A DNA stretch of 64,000 nucleotides from Tubulanus polymorphus (taxonomy: Eukaryota; Nemertea; Palaeonemertea; Tubulaniformes; Tubulanidae). This document shows, piece after piece, positions 4,342 to 49,021 of the stretch. The notes under the pieces are model-generated. The model had not been told where the DNA came from and ran no database searches. It saw nothing but the letters and a program-made list of their open reading frames with translations. Made by a program: the position numbers and the translations under genes. The stretch lies in NCBI RefSeq assembly GCF_964204645.1, contig NC_134026.1, positions 22,152,650 to 22,216,649 on the forward strand. Direction: 5' to 3'. Each line of letters begins with the position of its first letter. Positions within the stretch are counted from its first letter, which is position 1.

Positions 4342-6994
4342 ATGAACAGACCGCAAACTTTAGGTGTCCTACCAAAGAACAATAGCGATACGGAACTGTT
4401 GAACCATAGTTTGGAGGTAAATGTCTTAGAGAAATTGCAGAATGGCACCGCAGCCGCATCAACAATAAAACCAGTTACTGATCGGGTGAATTTACCACGT
4501 CGCTATAACGAAATCCTCGCCGACGATCAGACTGCGACCGCCAATACCGATTTACCAGCAAGAAAAGATGATCTCAGCACCGCTATTTCCTGGCTTCGAC
4601 AGGAACTCGTAAGTACAATCTTCATTCGCGTATGAATTTATTCTGTTCTTGTCTCATTAATTAGTCTATTTTCAAATAATATGTCATCTCCATTTTCGAA
4701 CGAATATAATTCGCCATCGATATTATCATTTCAGCATTGAATTTTTTTCAATCAGTAAGATAACCCTCCAAATTTTATGGTATAAAAAGTAGGCGTTTCA
4801 TATTTCGGTTTTTCACCACGGGATGAAAATATGTTATGTATTTTGAGCCAACAGCCTGCTTGTTCTTAAACCCTTTTCTAGGGTATAACAACAGGCATTG
4901 GTAAGGGAATTTCACATTCATAGCGAGCTCAGAATACGTTTATTCGTGAGTCACATATATATATTCGTTGTTTCGAGAAAACTTTTACTTTTTGTTGTGA
5001 TTTATTTCTATATCCGCTTGGGAAAGAGACTTTTTATCGGCTGTATTTTTTCTTTAAAGCGCGAATACAATAATGAACATATTTAGTGGATATATTAGCT
5101 CATAATACGCGGCTTAAAAGTGTCCATAAAACCGGATCGGGTTTCGTTTTTGATAAATTACTATTTCATAATCTGAATGAGCCACCGAATTACTTTCACC
5201 GGTTCACCCAGGAAGATATGATAGCCTGAGGAAATCGTGCATTAAAACTCATTATTTTCTATAGACGAAAAAATCATAAGCTATAATGAGACATTAAGGC
5301 AGGCTTAAGGCATTAGCGTTCGTGGTGCGATGGGAAGAGTCAATTAAATATTGCCTCAAAATTCGATGTTGAACTCCAGCAATCCGAGGTTAATGGCTAC
5401 TTAATACACCGTTAATGCTTTCAAATTTATTGAGATTTCGCGAAGCATGCCAAATACACTCTTGTTGTTAACTCATTAATCCGCGTGTATCGTAAATTGG
5501 TTGTGAATAGACGCATTAAATAAACAATATTGTTTGATCCGCTCAATGCAGAAATTCGGAAAAAATCACGCATTAGGCTACAAGAAAATGACTCGAATTG
5601 ATACATGTAAATATACGCATGCTTGAACATGAAACCGGGATTTATATTAAAGATTCGGTTGGCATGCAAACCGGTAGTTCTCCAGCATATGCATACAAGA
5701 TATCATCACGTAAAAGCATCTTCAGTGCGAAAATGATTATATGACGATTATTACGTTTAGCATATTTCTCTGAAAGACATTTTTCAAAGGATTTTGATGA
5801 TCGGGGAAACATCGCGAATTCCTCCTATGGGAAATGGGAATGAAATGCTACGCGGGTTACATCACTACATTTACTAGTAGCAGTAAGCGAACTAATCAGA
5901 AATGATGAATTGCTATAGGGAAAAATTTCGATAAACTCATTTTCTCATTCAATCATGCCAGGTGAAAATTCTATCGGCCTGAATGAAACACGAAATCACT
6001 TTTATAAACGGCTCTCATAATCAAATCTTGTTTTAGATCGCGGCAGGGTACATTAGTTGCAGGCTGGATATTGCATTCATCGTTAATGTACTGACGACAT
6101 GAAATCCAATATCAGACTATATTTTTCGTTAATTTTGAGCGAGCGACAAAACGATTGTGGGACCGCGTGATTTTGCCTGGGCCTGGAGCTTCAGAACCAT
6201 AAAATAAATCATTATATTCTTCACCTATAATGCTATTAAAAGATGACGTCATGAAATTTGATACCGCGTGGCACGAAAGAAATTTATATCCTTTAATTAT
6301 GGACGTATAAACTAATTTATGCCCATGCTTAAATGAAGGCTTTCAATGCACATGGCAGGCACATGGTCATAAATACTTCTGTAAGGGATTTACCGTTGAG
6401 TTCACAAAGAGTGTAATTTTTCTGGTGGGATATTTTTCGAGGATTTTCTTGATAGATGCGTAGGATAAATCGCGAAGCTCTTGAACTTTCTGAGACCTGT
6501 GTAAGGTGTAGAACTTCCAAGATTACCCCGGAGATTTGACACCCAGGGTACGCGAGCTTTGAATGAAAGCTAATTAAGTGGTACAAGGACATCGAATCTA
6601 ATTTCAATCGAATGATTATTGATAGATAACTTTTTTACAGAGTATTCTAATTATTGTCTTGTTTATTTTTCAGCTTATGCTTAAACGACAAGACCAGCAT
6701 TTAATTCATCAGTTCGCATTCGTGGGCTCAGCTATCAAAGACATTAAAGAAAACCCGGCCTGGACAAATGACCCGTTAGGAATGAGTTGTCAGTCGTTAG
6801 ACTTTCTGTCCACGTCGAATGAGTGGTCCCCGGACAGCGAAATTTACATTACACCACCATCATCGTCACCAACTACACCGGTTAATGATAGAGACATTTT
6901 AGCTGATTTCCGAACTCACATTAAAAAGGAGTCAAATATACGTCGCACGCAGTCGGTATGGGTTAAACGAACTAACAAAGAGCAATATGTGTGA
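4342..6994 (+). CDS. FAM89/LURAP1-like leucine-rich adaptor protein, copy A
   Basis: Two coding exons, 4342-4608 and 6674-6994, join in phase 0 across a 2.06 kb GT..AG intron to give 195 residues. The 5' UTR probably continues up to the acceptor at 4269, and AATAAA lies at 7045-7050. The conserved block spans the junction at residues 77-113 (LSTAISWLRQEL then LMLKRQDQHLIHQF). It resembles the short leucine-rich helical segment of FAM89 and LURAP1 proteins, in which LRKE(M/L)..LR..D...L.QL is typical. In vertebrates those small adaptors link kinases such as MRCK or LIMK to actin-myosin control (family knowledge). The C-terminal half is Ser/Pro/Thr-rich and ends EQYV. Copy B at 48.4 kb has the same intron position and a similar end (EKFV). 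The gene is real because two paralogues conserve it; the family name is tentative. Confidence 0.7.
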
Positions 6995-22700: not shown

Positions 22701-25700
22701 AGAATTCTCATGAAAATAATAGATATTTTCTTATACCGGAGCTATTAAAAATGGTATATATTTAAAGGCATTATATTGCAGATGATCCAGAATTACTTGC
22801 TTTATGTGGAAATCCTAGAAAGTTAATCATCAAACTGTACGAACATGATAGTATCCCAGAAAGAATGGTTTCTGGAGGAATCATCAAACCATACCCAGGT
22901 AATATTTTTATTCAATCGCAAAATACCATCATATTTATATCTTTACAGCTTCCTGAATGCATATATATTTCTCTTTCTATCGACACAAGATATCCACAAA
23001 GCTGTGAAAGAAATTGCAGTCCTGCATGATATTGATGTTCATTCATTGAACGTAGAACTAATCGACAAGTGGCTAGCAGTGAGCAACAATTGTAGCATGA
23101 CCGATGCGGTATGTTTTGGGGCAGGAGTGACCAAACAGGAGGATAATGAAAATAGAATTTGAATTTTTGAAAGTTCTACTAGCCCACGGGTTTTTAGACT
23201 CAAATTCATTACTCTAAAAAGATCTAGGAATAATAGTAATGAAACGTTATGGTTGCTTTTTTAAGACGATGACATTCAATTTCAACATGAACATGGATAT
23301 TACTAATATGGAGGTGTTAAATGAAGATGAGATCAATTTGAAACGTGTTATGTTTATACTGCTTGGTGACGATATTAAGAAAGGCCTTTCGTATCTCTTA
23401 TTATGTTCTATCGTGAGTTTTTCTTATTCTAATTCATAACTTTGCCGGACTTTAAATTATAAATGAAATAGTTTAGTCATAACGTATATCACGTATCTAT
23501 TGTTTTTTCTCGCTGATGGTATTCTCTGCAGAAAAAAGATGTTAGGAAACGCAGCGATACGCTTCGAGGCTGGCGAGTTCTGTTAGCTTTATCAGACGAC
23601 GCTACTCTGGACGAAATGGGCTTCACTAAACAGAAAATTAAGTAAGCTTAAGTAAATCCGAATTATTCTTGACGACATCAGCGTGGCCACTGACCTAAAA
23701 AAAACCTGGAAAACTGGGGGATCAGGAAAAATTCGTGGAAAACTCGGAGAATTCTACAAATTGTACGAATAACCTGGAAAACCCAGGGGATTTGCATAAT
23801 GCTAATGACCACGTGTTTCTTCATCAGTACTTGATTCATTGAAAAATGAATGAATTGTAACACTTTAAACCTAGAAATGTGTCTGATTCACTGAATGTCT
23901 CTGATTGTTTTTGTTCATACAGGGACAGAATAAAGTTAGTAAATTATCTCGTCGAACTCGAGAAACTTCATATAAACCACAGTGAAGAATCGTTCCAGGC
24001 ATGTGACAAAGAGTCTTTAGTTCTGAGCATCTGGAAAAATCACAGTCATGAACAAAGGGTAAAAAAACTTATGTAATTGGATAGAAATTATTTCTAAGAG
24101 GGCTTTAACTGGAAATAACTACAATGAACAAGATTTCATTGATACTCAAACCAAAGTATTCATAAACTGTATAAATCACCTGTATTTAAACCAAGAATCA
24201 ACTACCACCAAGTCTTGATGATAATCAAAGTTAAAAGTACTTTCATTATACAAAATCTCAAAGCTCTTTTCCAAAATAAGGGATACCGCTATATAGATTT
24301 TATTCTTAAAATAGAATAGTTTTTAGCTCTGCTGTTGAACGAAATGTACTGCTATGCATGTATGTTGAGGATGTTTAACAAATCCTAAATTGCTGTTTGC
24401 AGGCTGTGCGTGTCATCACAAATCTGTGTTTGGAATATAGCCTGTATGACGTACAGTTATGGTCCGGTTTGATAAAACAAATGCTCACTTTCTCAATGGT
24501 AGGTGTTTGTATCCGTAATTGATTTGTACCAATGTTGCACGATACCTCATGCTCACACGATTGCAAAATGATTTTCAACATGATATCAAATTCCTCAGCA
24601 ATTTTCATGGATATTCCAGACTGAGTTCCTTGAATTAACCCTTGTGCAGATAGCTAGTATAAGCGAACTTCTTCTTGTGACTCATCTGAAGCAAGCATGG
24701 ATGATTGTCATCATGACTCCATTCTTATCCGGTACGTTTTCTTCGAGTTACTGTAATCCCGGCATAGTCTACGTGAGGAGAGTAATACCGTGCTGTTTCT
24801 TAAACTATATGAATGGGTAATTTTTTCAGTGCCCAACCTCAATGTATTCAGCTTTGCGACACTGTAAAAAACCTTTTTAAGCTTGTTTATTCTATAACTA
24901 TCAATGTGATAGAACAATTGTTCTATAATGATCACTTGTTTTTTACAGCGGTTCCTCCTCTAAGTGGAGAACAACTACAGCGATGCTTGAACAGTGTTAC
25001 TCTTCTCCAAAGGTTTGTTTCAGTGTTTATTTCAAGCATTCATTGCAGTAACTTTTAACAAAATTTTCCAGATGCCAAAAGCTCAAAACTGACATCATCA
25101 GAAATACTTGGGAGCTCATTCAGCAAGTTACTTTCATTTCGATATTTGAAAGCTGAAGAAAATCCTTGCGGAATGGCTTCTGTATTATCTATTGTCGAGT
25201 TAGTTAGTATGTGTCATTTCAGGTGCCCTGTACTCCATGATTTAGATCTGAGAGCGATTCATCAGAATTTCCTGAAAGCCAATTTGACGCCATGTACATT
25301 TTACTGTCTCATGCTGACAACTAAACAAGAAATCCGTCACAGTCAAATAAAGGTCTGCATCTAGCATATATTCGAAAAGTTATTTGAAAAGTAATTTGAT
25401 AGAATCATTTTCACAACTCAACAATGTCAAAGAATATTTTTGTCTTCATTAGAATTTCTTTGAATCTCGAGGCATAATGGAATTTCTGAAAGATGTCGAC
25501 GAACTTCGAAATAAAGGAGCTTTACCCGGTGTATTAGAACAGGTCAGTATACCAAAATATAAGATTGTATATTCCATTATGACAACTGCAGTTTAATTAA
25601 AACAGGTATTTTTCATCAGCCAATTATGACGCATTTGGCGGCCATCTTGGTGTCACCAGTACTCATTCGTAAGTGGGAAAAAGTTTTTCCACATTATATT

Positions 25701-27063
25701 GATACCTAAGCGTATTTTGATACCACAATCAATTAGAAAGTTGTAGCTCATAACGTGTTCTATGATTGTGGTGAGTTTCAAGGTAATTGGATTTTGTATA
25801 TGGCCACCAGGGGGCGTTGAATAATACAATATCTTAGCATTTCTTTATTATATTCGTACCTATGCATATTTTGTAACCACAATCAATTGGAAAGTTGTAG
25901 CTCATGACATCATCTATGATTGTTGCGAGTTTTAAGGACATAAGTTTTTCTATATGGTCACCAGGGGGCGTTGAATAGTAGAATAACTTAGTATTTCCTT
26001 ATTATATTGGTACCTAGGCATATTTTGTTACCATGATCAATTGCAAAGTTGTAGTTCATGACATGTTCTATGATTGTAGTGAGTTTCGAGGTCACCTTGG
26101 GTTTTGAATATGGTCACCAGGGGGCGTTGAATAGTAGAATGACTTAGTATTTCCATATTAAATTGGTAACGAGGCATATTTTGTTATCACAATCAATTAC
26201 AAAATCGTAGCTGTTGACATGTTCTATGATTGTGGTGAGTTTCAAGGTCATTGGTTTTGTAAATGGTCACCAGGGGGCGTTGAATATTGAAATTGTTAGA
26301 TTGTTGAGCATTTGAAACCACTTCACAAGTGGGCATGGTGTCCCTGGACCCCTAATGATATATTGTATTTGATAGGTTATACATGAGGTGTATGAATATA
26401 TCGATATGGGCGAGTTGTATGAGGTCATAATTGATAGCAGCCACCAGCAAACCTTTGTCGCTTATCTACTCGAAAAGGATAGCATCACCAACCTACTGAA
26501 ATTCGGAATTCTCCAGAACAAGTATGTTTATGTTCCTCCATCTGAAATAAGAATTTCTCAATTGTAAATGTAATTAAAATCCACATTTAGTTCCGGGGTA
26601 TCTCTTTTATATCTTTTTTCTCCATTTACACGTAGGATTGAACAAGTAACAGCCATCGTTCAGATATATCATAAGCGATACCCGTACTCGGAATCAGCTG
26701 AGATTTGCAACGAAGATGAGACAGTTAGTCCAATAAAAGTAAGTTTATTGAGATAAATAGCGCATGAATATATTTTGAAGGGAAATATCTACAGTGATAT
26801 GCATTTCAATTTCATTTCCCGATAGACATGTTCATGTATCCCAAAATTCTATTGAATTCTGAAGGATGGATAGGTCCACCTCGTTGATAACCATCGAAAA
26901 CGTGCATCCTCTTCATGTAATTTATTTCTTTTTATCCAACATTATTTGACAGGCCTATCTAGCTGTACACGGAATGCTCGATGAATTGAAGGAATATATT
27001 CCGAGCAGTGATGAGGAAGAGGACATTGTTGATGATGAAGACACGTCAGCTGGCGAAAGATGA
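10730..27063 (+). CDS. KNTC1: Kinetochore-associated protein 1 (ROD), complete, 57 exons
   Basis: ROD subunit of the RZZ (ROD-ZW10-Zwilch) complex, which recruits Spindly, dynein and MAD1-MAD2 to unattached kinetochores. Exons: 10730-10855, 11238-11358, 11548-11663, 11915-11993, 12481-12561, 12650-12783, 12929-13010, 13095-13156, 13354-13460, 13570-13708, 13882-13979, 14536-14611, 14837-14956, 15156-15245, 15317-15432, 15559-15667, 15939-16133, 16220-16327, 16415-16534, 16630-16770, 16857-16952, 17065-17168, 17317-17416, 17609-17746, 17865-17984, 18063-18141, 18217-18281, 18475-18585, 18681-18738, 18845-19114, 19356-19453, 19614-19764, 19877-20091, 20297-20386, 20469-20600, 20704-20820, 21017-21126, 21216-21414, 21508-21588, 21679-21777, 21869-21959, 22050-22108, 22188-22419, 22533-22697, 22782-22898, 22990-23108, 23266-23412, 23532-23641, 23923-24058, 24403-24498, 24650-24731, 24949-25012, 25223-25352, 25453-25542, 26376-26521, 26636-26738, 26953-27063. 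Together 6,651 bp, about 2,216 residues; every phase closes. Diagnostic segments: N-terminal GSYLYQVDTLVTIS, LYRLLHKEKFDEAIEFAK with LDVE|LVYK, LDPYDYDMI, and C-terminal KNHSHEQR. The N-terminus should form the beta-propeller and the rest the helical repeats and Rod C-terminal domain (family knowledge). AATAAA is at 27153-27158. Less certain junctions: 11238 (or 11244), 18845 and 19877. Confidence 0.96.
12127..12194. repeat. Short tandem duplication in KNTC1 intron 4
   Basis: Two identical 30-bp copies at 12127-12156 and 12165-12194, each beginning AAAATGCCTTATAAAATC, with an 8-bp spacer. A local duplication with no apparent function. Confidence 0.8.
14021..14417. mobile_element. MITE-like insertion with GGACAATTGCCCC ends in KNTC1 intron 11
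   Basis: The left end TAGGACAATTGCCCCCC (near 14021) and the right end GGGGGGCAATTGTCCTG (near 14400-14417) are inverted copies. The right end includes a run of 14 G at 14390-14403. The interior holds two diverged copies of a segment containing TCAAAAACTTTAAA. This is the layout of a short non-autonomous DNA transposon. No coding capacity. Confidence 0.6.
17231..17280. repeat. (AT)n microsatellite in KNTC1 intron 22
   Basis: Nearly pure alternating AT/TA sequence with one TTC interruption, located between exons 22 and 23. Likely length-polymorphic. Confidence 0.9.
17483..17513. repeat. Palindromic repeat end in KNTC1 intron 23
   Basis: AGCCCACTTGGGACT followed by AGTCCCAGCGGGCT forms a near-perfect inverted repeat with a 2-base centre, continuing into GCGTTCAC. 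It looks like the end of a dispersed element; no second end was found nearby. Confidence 0.55.
23682..23830. mobile_element. Probable MITE remnant in KNTC1 intron 48
   Basis: The left end GCGTGGCCACTGACC and the right end AATGACCACGTG are imperfect inverted copies. The interior is rich in repeated CTGGAAAAC/CCTGGAAAAC units. No coding capacity. Judged from structure alone. Confidence 0.45.
25645..26300 (+). repeat. Four-copy tandem repeat (about 155 bp) in KNTC1 intron 54
   Basis: Four diverged units in the 833-bp intron between exons 54 and 55. Each contains a CACAATCAATT-like stretch, AAAGTTGTAGCT, TTCTATGATTG and the invariant CACCAGGGGGCGTTGAAT. The invariant core starts at 25805, 25960, 26115 and 26268, so the period is 153-155 bp. 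Divergence elsewhere in the unit with an unchanged core is notable; the core resembles the CTCF consensus (see findings). Confidence 0.85.
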
Positions 27064-27180: not shown

Positions 27181-30100
27181 TTCACTTTCCATTTTGGTTA
27201 ACGTTTCGTTATTTTTTCGTCGGACATGATGCAAAGAATTAGCAGATGACCAAGTCGTGCAAAAACAACAGAGGTCATTGTGATAAGGAAATAGGAAACA
27301 AACTAAAACCCCAAGGCCATTATTTATCCAAGGCCATTAATCTAGTAGAACCAGTCCCATGACTCGCTCTAAGGAAATTTATTAGATAGGATACTTTTTT
27401 GACGCCTTATAAAACGTTACCATTATGAAACCTAAACAATGTTAACCATTCAGCGTCATTTTACAAACGACAGCCGTAAATCGATGTGCAAAACGTCACA
27501 GGTCTATGTGTACACAAATAAGCTATCTGGCATAATATTATTGACATAGATGTAGAATGGCTTCCTTTGATTATATAATGACCTATATTTGAACGTCGAA
27601 ATGTTATATTGCATTGAATATCATAAGAAGACGTATTGTAATAGTAAAGGATGTATGATTATATCAGAAGCGGCAGGCATAAATAGAAATGATAAGTAAA
27701 TCGGATTATTCGGTTAAAGGGCGGATGTATACACGATTTGGAAGTCTGATAAAAAAGTCAGACCCTGACGTGGGCATGCCGGTGGAATGACGAAGCTATC
27801 TACGATGTGTGTAGGGCCGGCGTGAATTTCATCAGCGGCTACAAGCGGTCAATATGAAAATGTGTAAACATATTATTTCAATATTCAAACGTTTTAGAAA
27901 ATATGTTTGATATCAGGAGTATGCAGGTTTCGTGAGATTAGCAATTTATAACAGCATAGCTATCATATACGGCTCCGCGTCCTCTGATGGCATGTGTATT
28001 AGGTGACAACTCAATTCAATTCTTTATTGATCCTTATTACATTGAAATTTCGGGATAAAATTCCCAAATTCAATAAATACAAATTTTAAAATAAATTAAT
28101 ACAACATACATGACACACGGGTAATTCATACAGAACAACATAAGCATGTTATTTTAAATGACAATGTCTACTTCAACCCACCCAGACTCAAGACTCTAGG
28201 ATATCGATAGTCAGTAACCTGTCTGTGGTTTAGTTTCACAATCGGATATTTTCACAAACCACAGTCAGGAATGGGAAGGTCATTTTTGTATGAAATCTTC
28301 GTCAGCCAATTTGACTGACGAGTAATTTGCCTGGCATTTCATTGTCTCTTAAGATATCCGTCTAATTTTTGTTGTAATCGACGCACAACAGATTCGTAGT
28401 TTGTCTGATACCTATAACACCTCACCTGACGATCTTAATCCATGTGCAAATCGGCCGTAAAGTGAGAGTAAATTTCCGTAGAGTCAACAGCTGCCATTTT
28501 GAAAATTACTGGAGGTGCTGGCACCTGTGGACTGAGGCCAGGACAACAGCACAAACTAACAAAGCGAAACGACGAAATTGAAAAATATTAAGAAATCAAC
28601 ACTTATTCACATTTTTCTTTTACCAGAATTTATTATTTAAATATTAATTAAGGAAAACACGAAGATTTGAAATATAGGTTGGAAAACCATCAAAAATAAA
28701 AATTGTCGTTTCGTCTTGGAAGTTTTATATAAATCCTTGTAGGTCCCCTTGTCTTATCATGCCACATGTGCAATACAGAGAAATGGCGGCCAATGGCGAA
28801 ATTTGTGGAGAAATTAATTAATTTCTCAAAATAATGTTGATTAATCACTCGAAACATGCATAAAATTGGATTATTTCGAAAGGTACCTGTGTAAGTTTGT
28901 GAAATAAGCCATTAATTGTGGACTGAAGTGGATAGAAAGTATATTTTTGAAGTGTTACTTTTTTCAACCGTGCTTTGGCCCTTGTCATCCCTAACGTTGG
29001 TATAAGCCCATCCGATTATAAAAGCTTACCACCAACGATTAGGTAACTAACTAGGATATCGAGTGACAGCCAAACCCGTGGCCCGGGCCGGCTGGCTAGG
29101 CCACACGATATGCTCGAAGTCATGATGAAGCAGACATCAGAAGAGCTCGTTCTTCAACCATGGAGGCAATGAAGTTGCAGACCAGCTTAGAGGCATAAGT
29201 AAATGAAGTCGGTCGCAAGTTCGCGATCAATTATTGAGAATTTTCAATAAAAAAATTTAAACCACTACTAGAGTCGAAGACCCGCTGTATCAATCAAATT
29301 TTTTAAAACGTCGATTTCAAATTTGCAATTCCACATGAGCTTAGCCCAGAAATTATACATTTTTTTCGCAGGCGTCAAATAATTTTCTAAAATTAATTTT
29401 CTTGTTTCATATTTCTTCAACACTTTACTGAGAAACTCACCCCGAGTTGACCGGAGTGAGGAGTGAACTATCATTTTCCAAGTACATGTAGACCACGCGA
29501 ATCAAAATATATACGTATTTCTCTCAGATTTACGTCCTGGATCCACCCCAAAACTGGATGAATTGCCAGAATGTCAACCACAGCCTTGAAAGTACTGGCT
29601 TTCTGTCTGGCATTGTGGGAAGAAGAGACTGAGACGCTGGTTTTTACTAACCACGAGTTTCTCGAGCAATAACTTCCCCCCTGGTTGGGTATATGCAGAA
29701 AATTGATTCTAGATTCGTAACAGTGAAAGGGTTGGTTTTTTATCGTTAAATTGACTAATTTAGTAGGCATTGATAGACATACTAAAATTAAGTTCATACT
29801 TTCCCTAATTCGCGACAATTTCATGATTTATGCGTTGATACAAATATAAAACTTTGAAATGATTACGGTGTCTTGTCATCTCTCTGGATTTAGATTCCTG
29901 GTCAATTCTTCAAACGCCCACAAGAATCTTTATTTACGCGTTAGACGCAGTACTGGTGCGCATTCTTAGCATATTACTAGAACCCCTAAAGAAAAAAGAT
30001 AAAAACCTAACCTAATCTAATTTTGATAGTACACCGGGAACGTGAGGTCTACTGCACTGAGGATTCGACCTCGATTGAAACTCGATACCGACCATTGTAC

Positions 30101-30350
30101 ATTTTGATATGCCTGGCGCGGTAATTCCAGTGACGCACTGTTAAAATGGCGTGCTCTCCAACATACAACACGAAAAACCAAAGCCTCACTTCATTCCAAA
30201 TAACCCAGCTTCCCTTTACACTCCAGAAATCAGTATTTCAATTTTTGGTAAGTGTTTATAACATAGGTTAACATGGTGTAAATATATTTCATCTCAGATA
30301 TTGCGGGTAACCTGTCAGGGCGATCCCACGAGAAGCACGTGGTGACAGTC
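27181..30350. other. Gene-free region downstream of KNTC1
   Basis: AT-rich sequence with no reading frame resembling a known protein on either strand. The stretch around 28004-28130, beginning CAATTCAATTCTTTATTG, looks like the reversed 3' end of a retroelement, but no coding part is present. Otherwise I see nothing that can be supported. Confidence 0.4.
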
Positions 30351-31278: not shown

Positions 31279-32204
31279 AGGAATTTAGAATACAGGTGCC
31301 CAAACATCTAGAGCTGACATATGGTCATTCATCCAACTCTGATATTTCTAGACCATGGCTTTATTTTGCTGTGGTATTTTTCTGAAATGATTCTTTAAAG
31401 AATTTGAATTATTTTTTGTTTCCATGTAAATTCACACTTTTACGCAAATGTTTTCTTCATCAGTTTCAGAAACAGATAATATTTGTACTGTTCGAATGTA
31501 TCTTCATTACGTCATTCTTATTTATATTTCATGTTCAACTTTGGAGGCAAAACCTAACCGGTAGATAGAAAGTAGTTTCTTGGATTCGGCACAGGACATT
31601 AGGAATCACTGTTTACAATCACTGTTGACAATCAGACTTTCTTGGATTAAGTACAAGACATCAAGAATCACTTAATGGAAATTCAAGATAAGTTGCATTT
31701 ATCTCTTATTCATCAGTTGTTGATTTGATTTTAAGGGACCAGTTTTATAGTTTTTGTTATAAACCATGTTTTGAAATGAAATGATAGAAACCTGTTGCAT
31801 CTATCCAATTCATTCGAATATCTTTATATCGACGTGTAGGCCTATTTGGTGACTTTGATTAGTTCATGGTTGGGATTGTTATTTCAGTGATACACAAAAG
31901 TTTAAAGCGGGTTTACAGGTTTTCTAAATTGTTATTTCTGATAAACATGAAACTGGCCCCTAATGTCAATGATACAACTGTGATCAATCATGTTCCTTTG
32001 TCACAATCAGATCTTTATAAACAGTTAGCAATTCTCTAGATTAGGCTATACTGTGTAGATATCAGACTGATTGTACAGTTACAGATACCTGTAACACTGT
32101 GTGTAAATAGAAGAGTACAGATGACGTGATTGAACAGTGATTTGTTCTTTCATCTTCACTATTCCCATCCGTCTAACTAAAACATCGTAACATTTTAACT
32201 CACC

Positions 32205-32480
32205 TCGGGGTTTGGGGAGGTTGGGTAGGGTTGGAGGGAGGCAGGGGTATAGGGAGGGTGGGAGGGAAGGGGTGAGGGAGGGTGGGAGGGAAGGGGGAGG
32301 CAGGGTGGGAGGGACGGGGTTTGGGAGGGGGAGGGAAGGGGCTTGGGAGGCTGGGAGGGATAGAGGCTGGGAGGGATGGGGATGGAGGGCGGGAGTGGAG
32401 AAATTAGAGGGAGGGGGATATAGGGTTGGTGGTGGGCAGGAGAGGATGGGTTGTGGTTTGACTTTGGAGTGAGGGGTGAT
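32205..32480 (+). repeat. G-rich GGGAGG minisatellite
   Basis: About 275 bp dominated by irregular GGGAGG/GGGAAGG units on the plus strand, almost free of pyrimidines other than T. It has many G-runs at the spacing needed for G-quadruplexes. An open frame crosses it but encodes only Gly/Arg/Glu repeats and is a composition artefact. Confidence 0.85.
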
Positions 32481-33250: not shown

Positions 33251-33989
33251 TAATGTTCATCGTTGCTTCCTCTTTGGCAGCGGATTTGAAGACGTACTCT
33301 TCGTTTTTGAAGAAGAGTATGAAACTCATTAGAAGCAGCATGCGGCACACATGTATCATTATCTGAATATTGATATCATTATTAATTATTTATCTTTCAA
33401 AAAGATGGGTCCAGACATTTTCTGAAATAACCTGCACACAATTTATTGGTGGAACAATGATGACATGGATTGACTAACACACAGAGACTATTGTTCTATC
33501 ATATAAATCCTGCAATTTTCATTTCTGAATGGGATATTCTATTGACACCGGTATATACGTAAAGCTATGACTTCTTGTTTTCTAGACAGAATTTCAAGGG
33601 CTGTGAACTAATCACACTTAAGACAAATTTTACTGTAGTAAAAAGTCGTAGTGTAAAAAGTTTGAGATAGTTAAGAATCGTTAAATAGGTTTATTTCGCC
33701 ATTTTTCACGATCATATCAATTTCTGAAAGTTGTGCACGGTCAACATCCTCCACAGTTTAAAGTATTTTAGATTTTATCAATGCTTCAATTTGTCAGTTT
33801 ATAACCGTAGCTTAGACTTTGATCAATGCATCATTTTAGACTCCAATTAGTGAATTATTTATGACTTATCCGAGTGATGGGTGATAAGTCCTGATGGGTG
33901 ATAAGTCCGATTGCCCTTAATCAAAACATGCAACGCTCTATTTCATGTTGTGAGTGAACAACTTCTAAGTGATCCTTAGTTACCCTTAC

Positions 33990-34325
33990 AGGGCTGTGAA
34001 CCAAACTTTGACTGTTTGGTCACCAAACCAGGACTGTGAACCAAACTTTGACTCCTTGGTCACCAAACCAGGATCACCAAACTTTGATTCTTTGGTCACC
34101 AAACCAGGGCCACCAAACTTTGATTCTTTGGTCACCAAACCAGGGCCACCAAACTTTGACTTTTTGGTCTCCAAACCAGGGGCGTGAACCAAACCTTGAC
34201 TACTTGGTCACCAAACCAGGGCTGTGAACCAAACTTTGACTCTTTGGTCGCAAAAAAGGACTGTGAACCAAACATTGTCTCTATGGTCACCAAACCAGGG
34301 CTGTGAATCAAACCAAGGCCATGAA
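33990..34325 (+). repeat. Minisatellite of 36-40 bp units
   Basis: About eight units built from AACCAAACTTTGACT, then TTGGTCACCAAACCAGG, with a variable linker (GCTGTG or GGCCACC). Open frames occur on both strands only because the unit length is often a multiple of three. Confidence 0.9.
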
Positions 34326-34667: not shown

Positions 34668-34860
34668 AAAAAGAGTGGGGTTCGAGAGCAATTCGAAGGT
34701 TTAGTGTCCTGCACGCTTAGAGGGCGGGCAGGGGTCTATTCCTACCTCGACTCAAAAAAAAGAAAACTAAGAAAAAGAGTGGGGTCTGAGAGCAATTCGA
34801 AGGTTTAGTGTCCTGCACGCTCAAAGGGTGGGCAGGGGTCTATCCCTATCTCGACTCAAG
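34668..34860 (+). repeat. Tandem duplication of an unknown element
   Basis: Two copies about 105 bp apart share AGAGCAATTCGAAGGTTTAG, TGTCCTGCACGCT and GGCAGGGGTCTAT, ending CTCGACTCAA. They differ at several positions and are separated by an A-rich linker. Function unknown. Confidence 0.8.
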
Positions 34861-35558
34861 CACTTAAAGACAGAGAAAAAAGGGTAAAAATGGCAAATGA
34901 TGAAATATGGCCAGAGTTATATTTGTTCCACTGGGTTCAAGTTTAAACTTGAAAAGATGATCAAATTACAATCTAACGGATCGTTGATTACGTATCCATT
35001 TTGTAAACATATCAGCAGTTCATAAATCAAAATTAATAAATCTGAATGAATAGGATTCCATAAAACCACTTGCTCAAAGCCTCTAGTAGAGAGCAAAGGA
35101 ATGTCTAATCTGATTACATGTATCAACTGTCATTGGTCCACAATGGTTTCATAATGAACATGTTGAATTCGTGAAGCAACATAAATAGCCTCACTTGATT
35201 TGATCATTCTTGTCCTTGATTTGTGTTTGCCCTTCTCACAACTTTTTGTGAGTGTGGAGGTTTGGTTTGAGTTCATTTCCTCGGTTCGAGGGTTGTACCC
35301 TCCACACCTCCCTCCCTTACAACATTGTTAGTTGAGTTCCTTAGGTTTGGTTTGATAACTTGGAGATAAATTCCTCTACAACTCAAACTCACCGCAATCA
35401 GTTTACAGGCAACTGCTGCGACATGCTTGAAACTTTTGATGGGTTCTGGGAGGGTCGGGACGGGAGGTTAGGTGAGTTGAGATGTTACGGTATTTTCTCT
35501 ACTCTACAAATTTGAGATGTTACACGCTGCTCTGTTGTCACTGATTATTGTTTCTTTT

Positions 35559-38540
35559 TCTTTTTAGAATGAAATGCACGCGATGGAATTTACCGTATGA
35601 AAGTTAAGTACAAAATTAGTAATGAATTTCTCTATAGGTTTTGGAAATATATCGGAATTCATTGTTTTAGAGAACTGTGCTATATAAATTATTCAATCTG
35701 TTTATCTTTTCAGCAATTGATCACTCAAAGATCACAGCAGTTTGAGGTGAGTTTTTAATCATTTACGCCTTGATCAAAGTTGAAATAATTAAGGTCCTTA
35801 TGTTTTTCATACATTTTTACAGTGGACAGAGAGATGTAGGTTTTTGATATGGTTTAAAACTGCTCTTATTTCATGGCAACTCATGTACCTGGTATGCTTC
35901 TATACAACGTTTGTATTTCAGGTGCTAAAATGAAGCTGAACCTCAGTAAATCTGCAAACAGTTATCATTGCACTCTATGAATCATATTCAAATCAGAAGC
36001 GGTGAGTTTTATATCGATTTATTGCAGTAATTTGTGGTGATTTTATCAGTTATTAACTTTATTTATTATTTTTTTATTTTTTTTGGGTGCATCCCCAATC
36101 ATATCTACTCGGGGGTGGGGGGGGAATACTGTGGATAATATATGCTACAGTAATCAAAACAAGTTAAAAAAAGTAACTTTCAGAATAGCAGACACACATT
36201 ATGTGATATTCCTGTATTTCAATAATCACCTTTCTCTTTATAGAATGAAGTCCACACAGCACACTAGAATTTACAACTCAAAAGACCTGGTTCAAAGTAA
36301 AACTGAAAGCGGTAAGTTTCAATTTCAAACGGCTCTTTTTTCATAACAACTAAACTAATTTATAACATTTATACATTTGTTGGTGCCAAAATAAGTGAAC
36401 CCTTGACATAATATATGAATAGTAAACTTGGGAATTCACCGAACATTTGTCAATGATGTACATCGCTTTAGATCCTCACATTAACACAAGTACCAGTAAA
36501 TATCTCTGCATATATTCCAGTCTCTATACTTGCTGCTGTTGGACTGTAAATGTATATTATATAGTCTTTCCCTGATTATTGCTTTTTCTCTTATATCCAT
36601 CCAGTTCAATGCAAAAGTGAATTACTTATGAGATTACTTATGAAACACCCTGAAACTACGTTAATAAGGGAAGGTCAATTTGAAATTTGAAGTTAGAATT
36701 GAAATTATCAAGTTGAAAGTATGCAACTTTCGTATTTTAGAGTCCAAAATGAAGCTGACTTGTAGAGTGTGATGTTTACTGTGTGCTGATTTGTTAGGGT
36801 TTAAACATAAGTCAGATGTGGTGAGTTTTCTATCCATTTTTTGCAGTAATTTGTGGTGATTTATCAGTTATAAACTTTTTAATTTTCTGTGCAGTTTCAA
36901 TAGATTTACGTTTAAATCAAGTCAAGAAAATGGCAGGTTTTTTATCGGTCACTTTCAACTAAATGTTTTCAAAATGATTGCTAACGTTTTTATTTTAGAG
37001 GGCAGTCAATAGCTACCATCAGACCCCATTGAAATCTACATACACTCAACATATTGTGATAAACTGCTCAAAAACATGGTGGGTTTGTAGAATACAATAG
37101 AACACAAACAAGCTGCAGTTTCTTTTTCTTTCATCAATTATTATCTGGAATAATTTTCTCTTTCCAGAAGGCGATGCACCCAACACTAATTGGAGCTGGA
37201 AAAATTAGAAAATATTCACCTTCAGAGAATGAAGGAAGCTTGTTGCTATTATTGTTCAAAAGAAAAACTAAGTAATTTTCCCTATACATTTCAACCTGGT
37301 ACTAAACAACTGTATATTTCAATTATATATGTATTAATTTTTTTCAGGAAATCATCAGTGCTCTTAACTTTATGACATAATGGCTCTTGGAATGCTAGAA
37401 ATACTGCATGGTCAAACCGCAGATCATCTAGAGGTAGCTTACATCTTTTCGGTCGGAAATATGTATTTTCCTGTAGTAGAAAGTCATACCAAACACTCAC
37501 AATCCTGAGCTTGTGAACTCATCAGGTAAACACAAGTATGAAAAGGTTGGTTTTCTAATAGAATTAGCCCCAATTTCTGACTGCTATAATTTTGTAAATA
37601 CATATACCGGTATGTTGCTAATTCTTTTCATAGTATGATTTTGTTTCGCAGCATGAAATTTGTCGAATAGAACAGTTTGAAAGTTGATCAAAGACTGAAT
37701 AATGATATCGAATCATGTGGAACTATACGGTAACTTACAACTCTTTTTTCCGAGGTGCATGTATTTCATGAATGAAAACAATTCCCACTTGACTGTTAAT
37801 CCAATCAAACATTTTAAGTATAATATTTGCAGACGCATGTTTTCTCTCTATTTTAGAATGAAACGTGAAGCAATTATGCCATTTGACGAAGCCAGCCATC
37901 TACCTGGAGATTGATATGATGCCACTTATTTCAGAGATCTGCAATTTTAAAGTTAAAAGTCAAATGAATATTGTTTCCATAAAACAAATCCCCTGATACG
38001 TCTCACAAAGCTGTAACGTCATTTTTACTGATAGAATAGCCTGTACACGGACTCAGGCGTAGAGAATAGATGATGTAAACCCGCTTTATGCAAATTTGAA
38101 AGATTAAATGCATTACTTATTTATCAAGAATCAGAATCAAAATTACAAAGTAAATGAAGAAATAACTTGAACGACACAAAATAACAAAACCTCTCAACCT
38201 AAGCACTTAACACCCTTTGCTTTACTTTCTCAATTAACTTGTTCTTCCCCTGTTTTAGTTATTTCTTCACACATAAAGATGGTCTCTTAAGAGACTCCAA
38301 ACCGTGTCTTTGAATTTTTTTTAAATTTGTATGTAGTGGGTTTATAATCTTATTTCAATTTTTACTGATAATTGAAATGTAGTTAGTACCCCAGGACCCA
38401 GTTTCATTGGTCTGGGTACGTAAACTTTTATGCTATTTTGAATGGAAATATTTTGTATAATATTGTAGATTACTTGTTTTCTTATGGGACTTTACTTTGT
38501 ATGAACTGTTGTATGGTTTTATTTGAAATAAATATATATT
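35559..38540 (+). ncRNA. Candidate spliced noncoding transcript with repeated exon modules
   Basis: At least seven short exon-like blocks have good pyrimidine tracts plus AG and most have strong donors. Approximate blocks: 35569-35603, 35714-35743, 35922-36000, 36243-36310, 36741-36820, 37000-37078, 37348-37431, 37653-37728 and a last block from 37857 with AATAAA near 38527-38532. Reading frames are closed inside several blocks, so no single protein can be made. Blocks and intron starts are duplicated: exons contain AAAATGAAGCTGA twice, and introns contain GCAGTAATTTGTGGTGATTT twice (about 36023 and 36844). No C/D snoRNA boxes were found in the introns. It could instead be a decayed tandem repeat. 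Transcription is inferred only. Confidence 0.35.
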
Positions 38541-38573
38541 TTCACTGTTGTTCTAGTTGTGTTACAGACGCCA

Positions 38574-40061: not shown

Positions 40062-42361
<2,300 letters not shown>

Positions 42362-44424: not shown

Positions 44425-46526
<2,102 letters not shown>

Positions 46527-48387: not shown

Positions 48388-49021
48388 ATGTATGCGCTTG
48401 GGGATCTGGAAAAATGTAACCTAGGAATTTCTGAAGCATTTCAAAACGGTACCTCAGATAATCGGGTGCCGAAATCACCGCGTCGTTACGAGCTTACCAC
48501 CTTTGATCGGACGACTAAAACTGTCATTACCGATTTACCAGCTAGAAAATATGACCTGAACACAGCTATTATCTGGCTCCGACGGGAACTTGTAAGTACA
48601 ATAGAAATATCATCGAAATATCCATGTTCTAGAACTTAATTTTTAGATGAAAATTTGTTAGTATCATAATATTTTTTTCATAATTCTGCTTATTCATACT
48701 TTCTAGTTATCGATAAAACAACAAGATGAAAATCTAATACGCCAATTCAGGTTCCTTGGATCGGTAATCAAAAGCATCAACGATGAGATACATTGGTCCG
48801 ACGATGCAGGAGCTTTAAGTTGTTGCCAGTCGTTGGAATTCCTATCGACATCATCCGAACTATCACTTCCTTCAGACAATTCATCTTCCCGTCGGAATGC
48901 TTCCTCCTCTCCATGTACTCCTATCAGGGACAGCAATTACGTGGATAACTTCAGGATTTGCGAAGATTCCCGTGTGGGTTCAGTGCTGATCAGTCAAACA
49001 GACCACGAAAAGTTTGTGTGA
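48388..49021 (+). CDS. FAM89/LURAP1-like leucine-rich adaptor protein, copy B
   Basis: Coding exons 48388-48591 and 48707-49021 join in phase 0 across a 115-bp intron, giving 172 residues. I start at ATG 48388 because no earlier in-frame ATG follows the acceptor at 48346. The conserved block is ITDLPARKYDLNTAI then IWLRREL|LSIKQQDENLIRQF, matching copy A (TDLPARKDDLSTAI, WLRQEL|LMLKRQDQHLIHQF) with the intron at the same codon. The next shared segment is CQSLEFLSTSSE (CQSLDFLSTSNE in A), then a Ser-rich tail ending EKFV. Presumed role is adaptor in actin-myosin or kinase signalling by family analogy; the family assignment is tentative but the paralogy to copy A is clear. The intron is some 18 times shorter than in copy A. 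Confidence 0.7.

Follow-up and report, generated by a model that had tools for sequence, protein, structure and literature searches.

We consider it probable that the array of short exons at positions 35559–38540 of the window (C2:22152650–22216649, the whole 64,000-nt stretch of DNA analyzed here, from a genome of 268 Mb) belongs to one of many spliced, polyadenylated non-coding RNA genes whose likely payload is an 81-nt RNA encoded in intron 1. Comparison among the copies of these predicted genes demonstrates that splice sites are under selection, that the exons are non-coding, that the genes form multicopy arrays and that modules were duplicated, and the 81-nt element may be the actual product of the gene.

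The array region matched more than 300 stretches elsewhere in the genome at about 65–86% identity. To assess the splice sites, copies were taken from ten chromosomes and 24 of them were stacked on the window. In these paralogous copies 193 of 203 acceptor AGs (95%) and 124 of 133 donor GTs (93%) were kept, whereas the remaining AG and GT dinucleotides of these alignments, which served as background, were kept at 62% (permutation p < 5e-5 for acceptors and p = 0.0018 for donors, with the caveat that a few sites, notably the exon 9 and exon 10 donors, were fixed with the alignments already in view). The 24 copies are related to one another, but the background sites are equally related, so relatedness alone cannot account for the contrast. 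The comparison thus shows the predicted splice sites and the poly(A) signal of the array to be under selection. The acceptors, donors, recurring motifs and AATAAA (38527) listed in the preliminary description of this DNA were all found (Table 1). Its "at least seven" acceptors are real and conserved in the paralogues, but they number about ten, and its strong donors hold for most exons, those of exons 2 and 4 being weak or shifted here and that of exon 10 poorly kept. Because its donor is weak or shifted in the window copy, the 3′ end of exon 2 is uncertain.

Table 1. Features of the predicted gene in the window copy, with their conservation in paralogous copies
Feature	Position	Strand	Remarks
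Promoter-type motifs TGACGCA and AAAATGGCG (YY1-like)	30131–30151	+	At putative first exon
Putative first exon	30140–30247	+	Conserved in five full units; 5′ end approximate
First-exon donor TTTTTG/GTAAGT	30248	+	Conserved across units
X element	32019–32205	−	Inverted matches of 72–79% in 14 copies
36–40 bp tandem repeats	33989–34313	+	TRF; found in other units too
81-nt element, copy 1	34673–34753	+	Model R1; 109.7 bits, E 1.6e-26; in training set
81-nt element, copy 2	34777–34857	+	102.5 bits
G-rich conserved block	35438–35471	+	0.94 identity over 25 nt, 24 copies
Exon 2	35568–35595	+	Acceptor kept 18/21
Exon 3	35714–35746	+	Acceptor 16/17, donor 14/16
Exon 4	35823–35839	+	Acceptor 14/15; donor uncertain
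Exon 5 (duplicate of exon 7)	35922–36001	+	Acceptor 21/23, donor 22/24; repeats D3, D5
Exon 6	36244–36311	+	Acceptor 10/10, donor 9/10
Exon 7 (duplicate of exon 5)	36741–36820	+	Acceptor 15/15, donor 24/24
Exon 8	36999–37078	+	Acceptor 16/18, donor 22/23
Exon 9	37168–37271	+	Acceptor 22/22, donor 15/15
Exon 10	37348–37433	+	Acceptor 22/22; donor 37434 kept in 1/3 copies
Exon 11	37652–37729	+	Acceptor 17/18, donor 17/18
Terminal exon	37857–38545	+	Acceptor 22/22; identity 0.82; 3′ end approximate
Poly(A) signal AATAAA	38527–38532	+	Kept in copies displayed

The interval first described would represent only the 3′ two-fifths of the gene. When five full units were aligned from about 30.05 kb, they shared TGACGCA, then AAAATGGCGTGC and, about 105 nt on, TTTG/GTAAGT; the ATGGCG motif and the first-exon donor were kept in all five. 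A genome search with a representative copy of this block, which also served as the identity reference, returned 96 candidate places, and the 40 that were scored were all 95–100% identical and all spanned the donor. Inspection for a 5′ TOP showed TGACGCA and AAAATGGCG with no evident pyrimidine start, in a region where the start site is approximate. In the simplest model this first exon would be joined to exon 2 at 35568 across a 5.3-kb first intron, although further exons may lie between them, and the gene would measure about 8.4 kb inside a repeated unit of about 8.5–12.8 kb.

Exons 5 and 7 are duplicates of each other (54 nt at 89% and 39 nt at 79% identity, spacing 819). In pairwise comparison of the modules, exons 2 and 6 were weakly alike and exons 2 and 12 marginally so, while the high scores of the pairs 3/4 and 9/10 were discarded because the flanks of these neighbors overlap. 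One paralogue (C6 6.91 Mb) carries about five copies of a module of about 800 bp in tandem, another (C3 27.5 Mb) has its 5′ half in four copies, and a third (C6 6.71 Mb) has its 3′ end in three copies. Given these new duplications in the paralogues and the exon 5/7 pair, the original idea that exon–intron modules were duplicated in tandem was right; it is clear in the paralogues and, in the window, certain for exons 5 and 7. Subtelomeric copies on C10, C1, C7 and C4 (L019, L023–L027) possess an early-region exon that is missing from the window copy and contains an expanded CAG/GCA-rich repeat, very different in length between copies.

The array had also been likened to a host gene for intronic small RNAs, in which no C/D box pairs could be seen. 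Introns 2–11 contained one weak C/D candidate, whose C box was kept in 0 of 24 copies, and the reported absence of such pairs was upheld. These introns held no stable hairpins: no 90-nt window in 35568–38545 had a z score below −4, and neither a microRNA-like hairpin nor an Rfam family at threshold was found in that interval. Nor did the introns of the array contain a conserved island the size of a snoRNA. A host-gene reading is thus unsupported for the introns of the array but plausible for the whole gene, given the conserved, structured 81-nt element farther upstream in the putative first intron. A 25-nt intronic motif, TTGCAGTAATTTGTGGTGATTTATCAG, follows closely on the donor of exon 5 (36014–36038) and on that of exon 7 (36846–36870); conserved at about 0.96, it may be a splicing element.

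Mean identity of the 81-nt element across copies was 94.4% for copy 1 and 91.7% for copy 2, compared with a unit mean of 79%; no other 81-nt block of the unit is as well conserved, and the element exceeds every exon. Its length is nearly fixed at 81 nt and it is closed by the stem GAGU...ACUC. The consensus folded at −25.2 kcal/mol on the plus strand, whereas the minus strand reached −13.4 and column shuffles −16.4 ± 3.0; 97.4% of the cells at consensus pairs were standard. The changes were mostly G-C/G-U or U-G/U-A exchanges, which keep pairing on the plus strand only. Two-sided changes were nearly absent (one pair), so covariation support is weak and the function as RNA, rather than DNA, is putative. 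Direct reading of the element revealed no C/D boxes (RTGATGA/CTGA) and no terminal ACA, no Rfam family was found in the window, the array or the element at gathering or permissive thresholds, a tRNA search returned nothing, and the element has no T run able to end a polymerase III transcript. With neither C/D nor H/ACA boxes nor an Rfam match, it cannot be assigned to any established way of being protected once the intron is spliced out.

The 25-nt core of the element had 173 genome matches at up to 3 mismatches, and the reversed control had 0. Units carry one or two elements, the window copy two. When 11 element loci were picked outside the obvious known copies, with no exon criterion, 10 lay inside units; at the eleventh (C6 21.42 Mb), where one element is intact and the neighboring one decayed, no exon array was detectable within 5 kb. 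A SINE is disfavored because 10 of the 11 unlinked copies occupy the same place inside the unit. A CTCF-like site was also disfavored: the core TAGAGGGCGG, which resembles the CTCF motif, varies more than any other part of the element and corresponds to the apical loop of its fold.

The putative first intron has other recurrent features. Most units show an inverted pair of X elements of about 190 bp, each beside GGGAGGG-type repeats, bracketing 3–4 kb of intron; arms from the C3/C11 units and from the C4 array resemble each other at up to 94%. The second X copy of other units lies just downstream of the G-rich block; the window copy retains little of this downstream arm, and its remaining X element is adjoined by G-rich repeats at 32233–32400. 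Such inverted pairs could pair in the pre-RNA and bring the G-rich tracts together. The G-rich conserved block ends at a donor-like GTGAGT (35472), replaced by ATGAGT in the subtelomeric arrays, and is possibly an alternative exon end.

These observations suggest the following model. Transcription would begin at 30.14 kb with the short conserved first exon (about 30140–30247), followed by a long first intron, about ten very short exons whose number grows and shrinks through tandem duplication of exon–intron modules, and a terminal exon of about 690 nt with AATAAA. The short exons would serve mainly as a splicing scaffold, the 81-nt structured RNA would be freed from the spliced intron 1 in the manner of intron-encoded small RNAs, and the many units would supply its dose. 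Whole segments of 8.5–12.8 kb would have spread, some as scattered single copies and others as tandem arrays, with a preference for chromosome ends. More tentatively, the element, with its more than 170 copies, may represent a new class of intron-encoded structured RNA from host genes that are often subtelomeric and have modular exon turnover. A text search of the open literature, run without the species name, found no description of this RNA gene family, which is weak evidence of novelty.

Alternatively, the terminal exon could be the payload instead of the 81-nt element. More generally, the gene could be a modular long non-coding RNA acting through its spliced or terminal exons, with the 81-nt element serving independently as a regulatory feature of the DNA or pre-RNA, perhaps in splicing or chromatin. 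In favor of this reading, selection in the array visibly keeps the splice sites, and the terminal exon ranks with the best-conserved exon blocks (0.82, with 25-nt islands at 0.93–0.97). The internal exons, however, evolve at the intron rate (identity across copies 0.77, compared with 0.78 for introns) and accept indels of any length, those divisible by three making up 80 of 434 (18%) in exons and 198 of 996 (20%) in introns. Since the 81-nt element is also conserved beyond any exon, we regard an RNA acting through its exons as rather unlikely.

Units occur both singly and in tandem arrays with a period of about 10.8–12.8 kb. The first 100 exact core matches, out of 173 matches with up to 3 mismatches, gave at least 83 distinct units on most chromosomes; 45 of these 83 are situated no more than 600 kb from a contig end, where 5% would be expected, and counted by cluster the figure is 9 of 36 (P = 7e-5). 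Contig ends are not all true telomeres, TTAGGG repeats being present at one of the six ends read. At the left contig end of C4 (L041, 1–180) an open frame resembles, by eye, the end of a GIY-YIG endonuclease as in a Penelope-like retroelement. In a tree of the terminal exon, the subtelomeric arrays of C1, C4, C7 and C10 together with C6 9.5 Mb formed one young mixed clade, whereas the window copy sat on a deep branch. We estimate that the predicted family comprises from dozens to about a hundred gene copies, many arrayed near chromosome ends.

This high copy number, the tandem arrays and the subtelomeric bias would also fit a selfish or passively amplified segment, either a non-autonomous repeat or a subtelomeric duplication, with splice signals inherited from a once-functional gene; the unit contains no protein genes and is copied whole, introns included. 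Against this, in copies that are about 20–30% diverged, conservation of the splice sites and of the 81-nt element far exceeds that of the neighboring sequence. By inspection, the unit boundaries of five loci differed and revealed neither terminal repeats in common nor target duplications, and an ORF listing of three unit-bearing stretches contained no transposition ORF. The outcome that the preliminary description named as a refutation, a degraded transposon, was not observed, although the sequence is repeated, occurring as more than 80 segmental copies devoid of protein-coding capacity. Mere amplification strikes us as improbable.

The non-coding nature of the exons, also proposed at the outset, is backed by the near-equal identity of exons and introns, the indel periods, ORF length and stop codons. 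The longest ORF of the predicted spliced RNA was 64 aa, within the range of shuffled sequences (mean 49, 95th percentile 82); the first exon used in this test was 8 nt too long, which did not affect the outcome. Stop codons interrupt all frames, indels within the first exon break the frame between copies, and no conserved reading frame was found across copies. In the ORF listing of the three unit-bearing stretches, no gene-like ORF above 110 aa lay inside other units: those found were mostly proline-rich readings of G-rich repeats, and the remaining long ORFs lay outside unit bounds or in low-complexity sequence. Despite the CAG-rich exon of the paralogues and the 64-aa ORF that starts in the first exon of the window copy, these stops and frame-breaking indels, with no excess of indels in multiples of three, make a fast-evolving protein or secreted-peptide gene of short exons, misread as non-coding, most improbable. 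Kept splice sites combined with exons that lack a reading frame support well the original view of a modular long non-coding RNA, and the array as a predicted spliced non-coding transcript.

Several other features were observed in the window. The regions 40062–42346 and 44425–46508 are two copies, 70–93% identical in blocks, that look like a tandemly duplicated actin-family gene; an ORF at 41718–42002 on the minus strand matches Pfam Actin. Cactin and KNTC1-like neighbors, like the TTAGGG repeats at one contig end, point to an animal genome; searches for COX1 and for a tunicate-marker family gave no match. A tandem array with a 154-bp unit (3.9 copies, 83% matches) occupies 25682–26286. An 864-bp segment at 28198–29058 matches, in inverted orientation, a stretch close to a C3 unit of the family at 96% identity and is probably a recently mobile repeat. 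A 78-bp coding-like duplicate (4542–4619 and 48525–48602, 85%) occurs in two similar ORFs 44 kb apart.

Since a single genome contains dozens of diverged paralogues, comparison alone can show what selection keeps in a non-coding gene: here splice sites, the poly(A) signal and one intronic structure, as opposed to the sequence of the exons. Should the 81-nt element prove to be a processed RNA, it would establish a new class of small RNA linked with arrays of subtelomeric genes. We know of few large multicopy families of non-coding genes with selected splicing apart from the mammalian imprinted snoRNA clusters.

SNORD115/SNORD116 and rat Bsr are tandem snoRNA host loci (PMC11028025). The family resembles them in its tandem units, non-coding exons and small conserved intronic element, for which a processed RNA is a prediction, and in the uneven gain and loss of copies (PMC11028025). 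Unlike in those loci, a promoter-like start and a poly(A) signal are predicted for every unit here, and the units are dispersed over most chromosomes and subtelomeres. The 81-nt element also lacks C/D boxes, so the family is not classed as a snoRNA host despite its layout. SNHG/GAS5 host genes are likewise spliced and polyadenylated, with many short exons of little sequence conservation, and the transcript predicted here similarly has exons with no conserved frame; introns 2–11, however, carry no snoRNA signature, and the conserved element, of no known class, is found only in intron 1. Finally, the copies, both tandem and dispersed, recall subtelomeric multigene families in their exchange between chromosome ends, as judged from the tree, but here the predicted product is non-coding.
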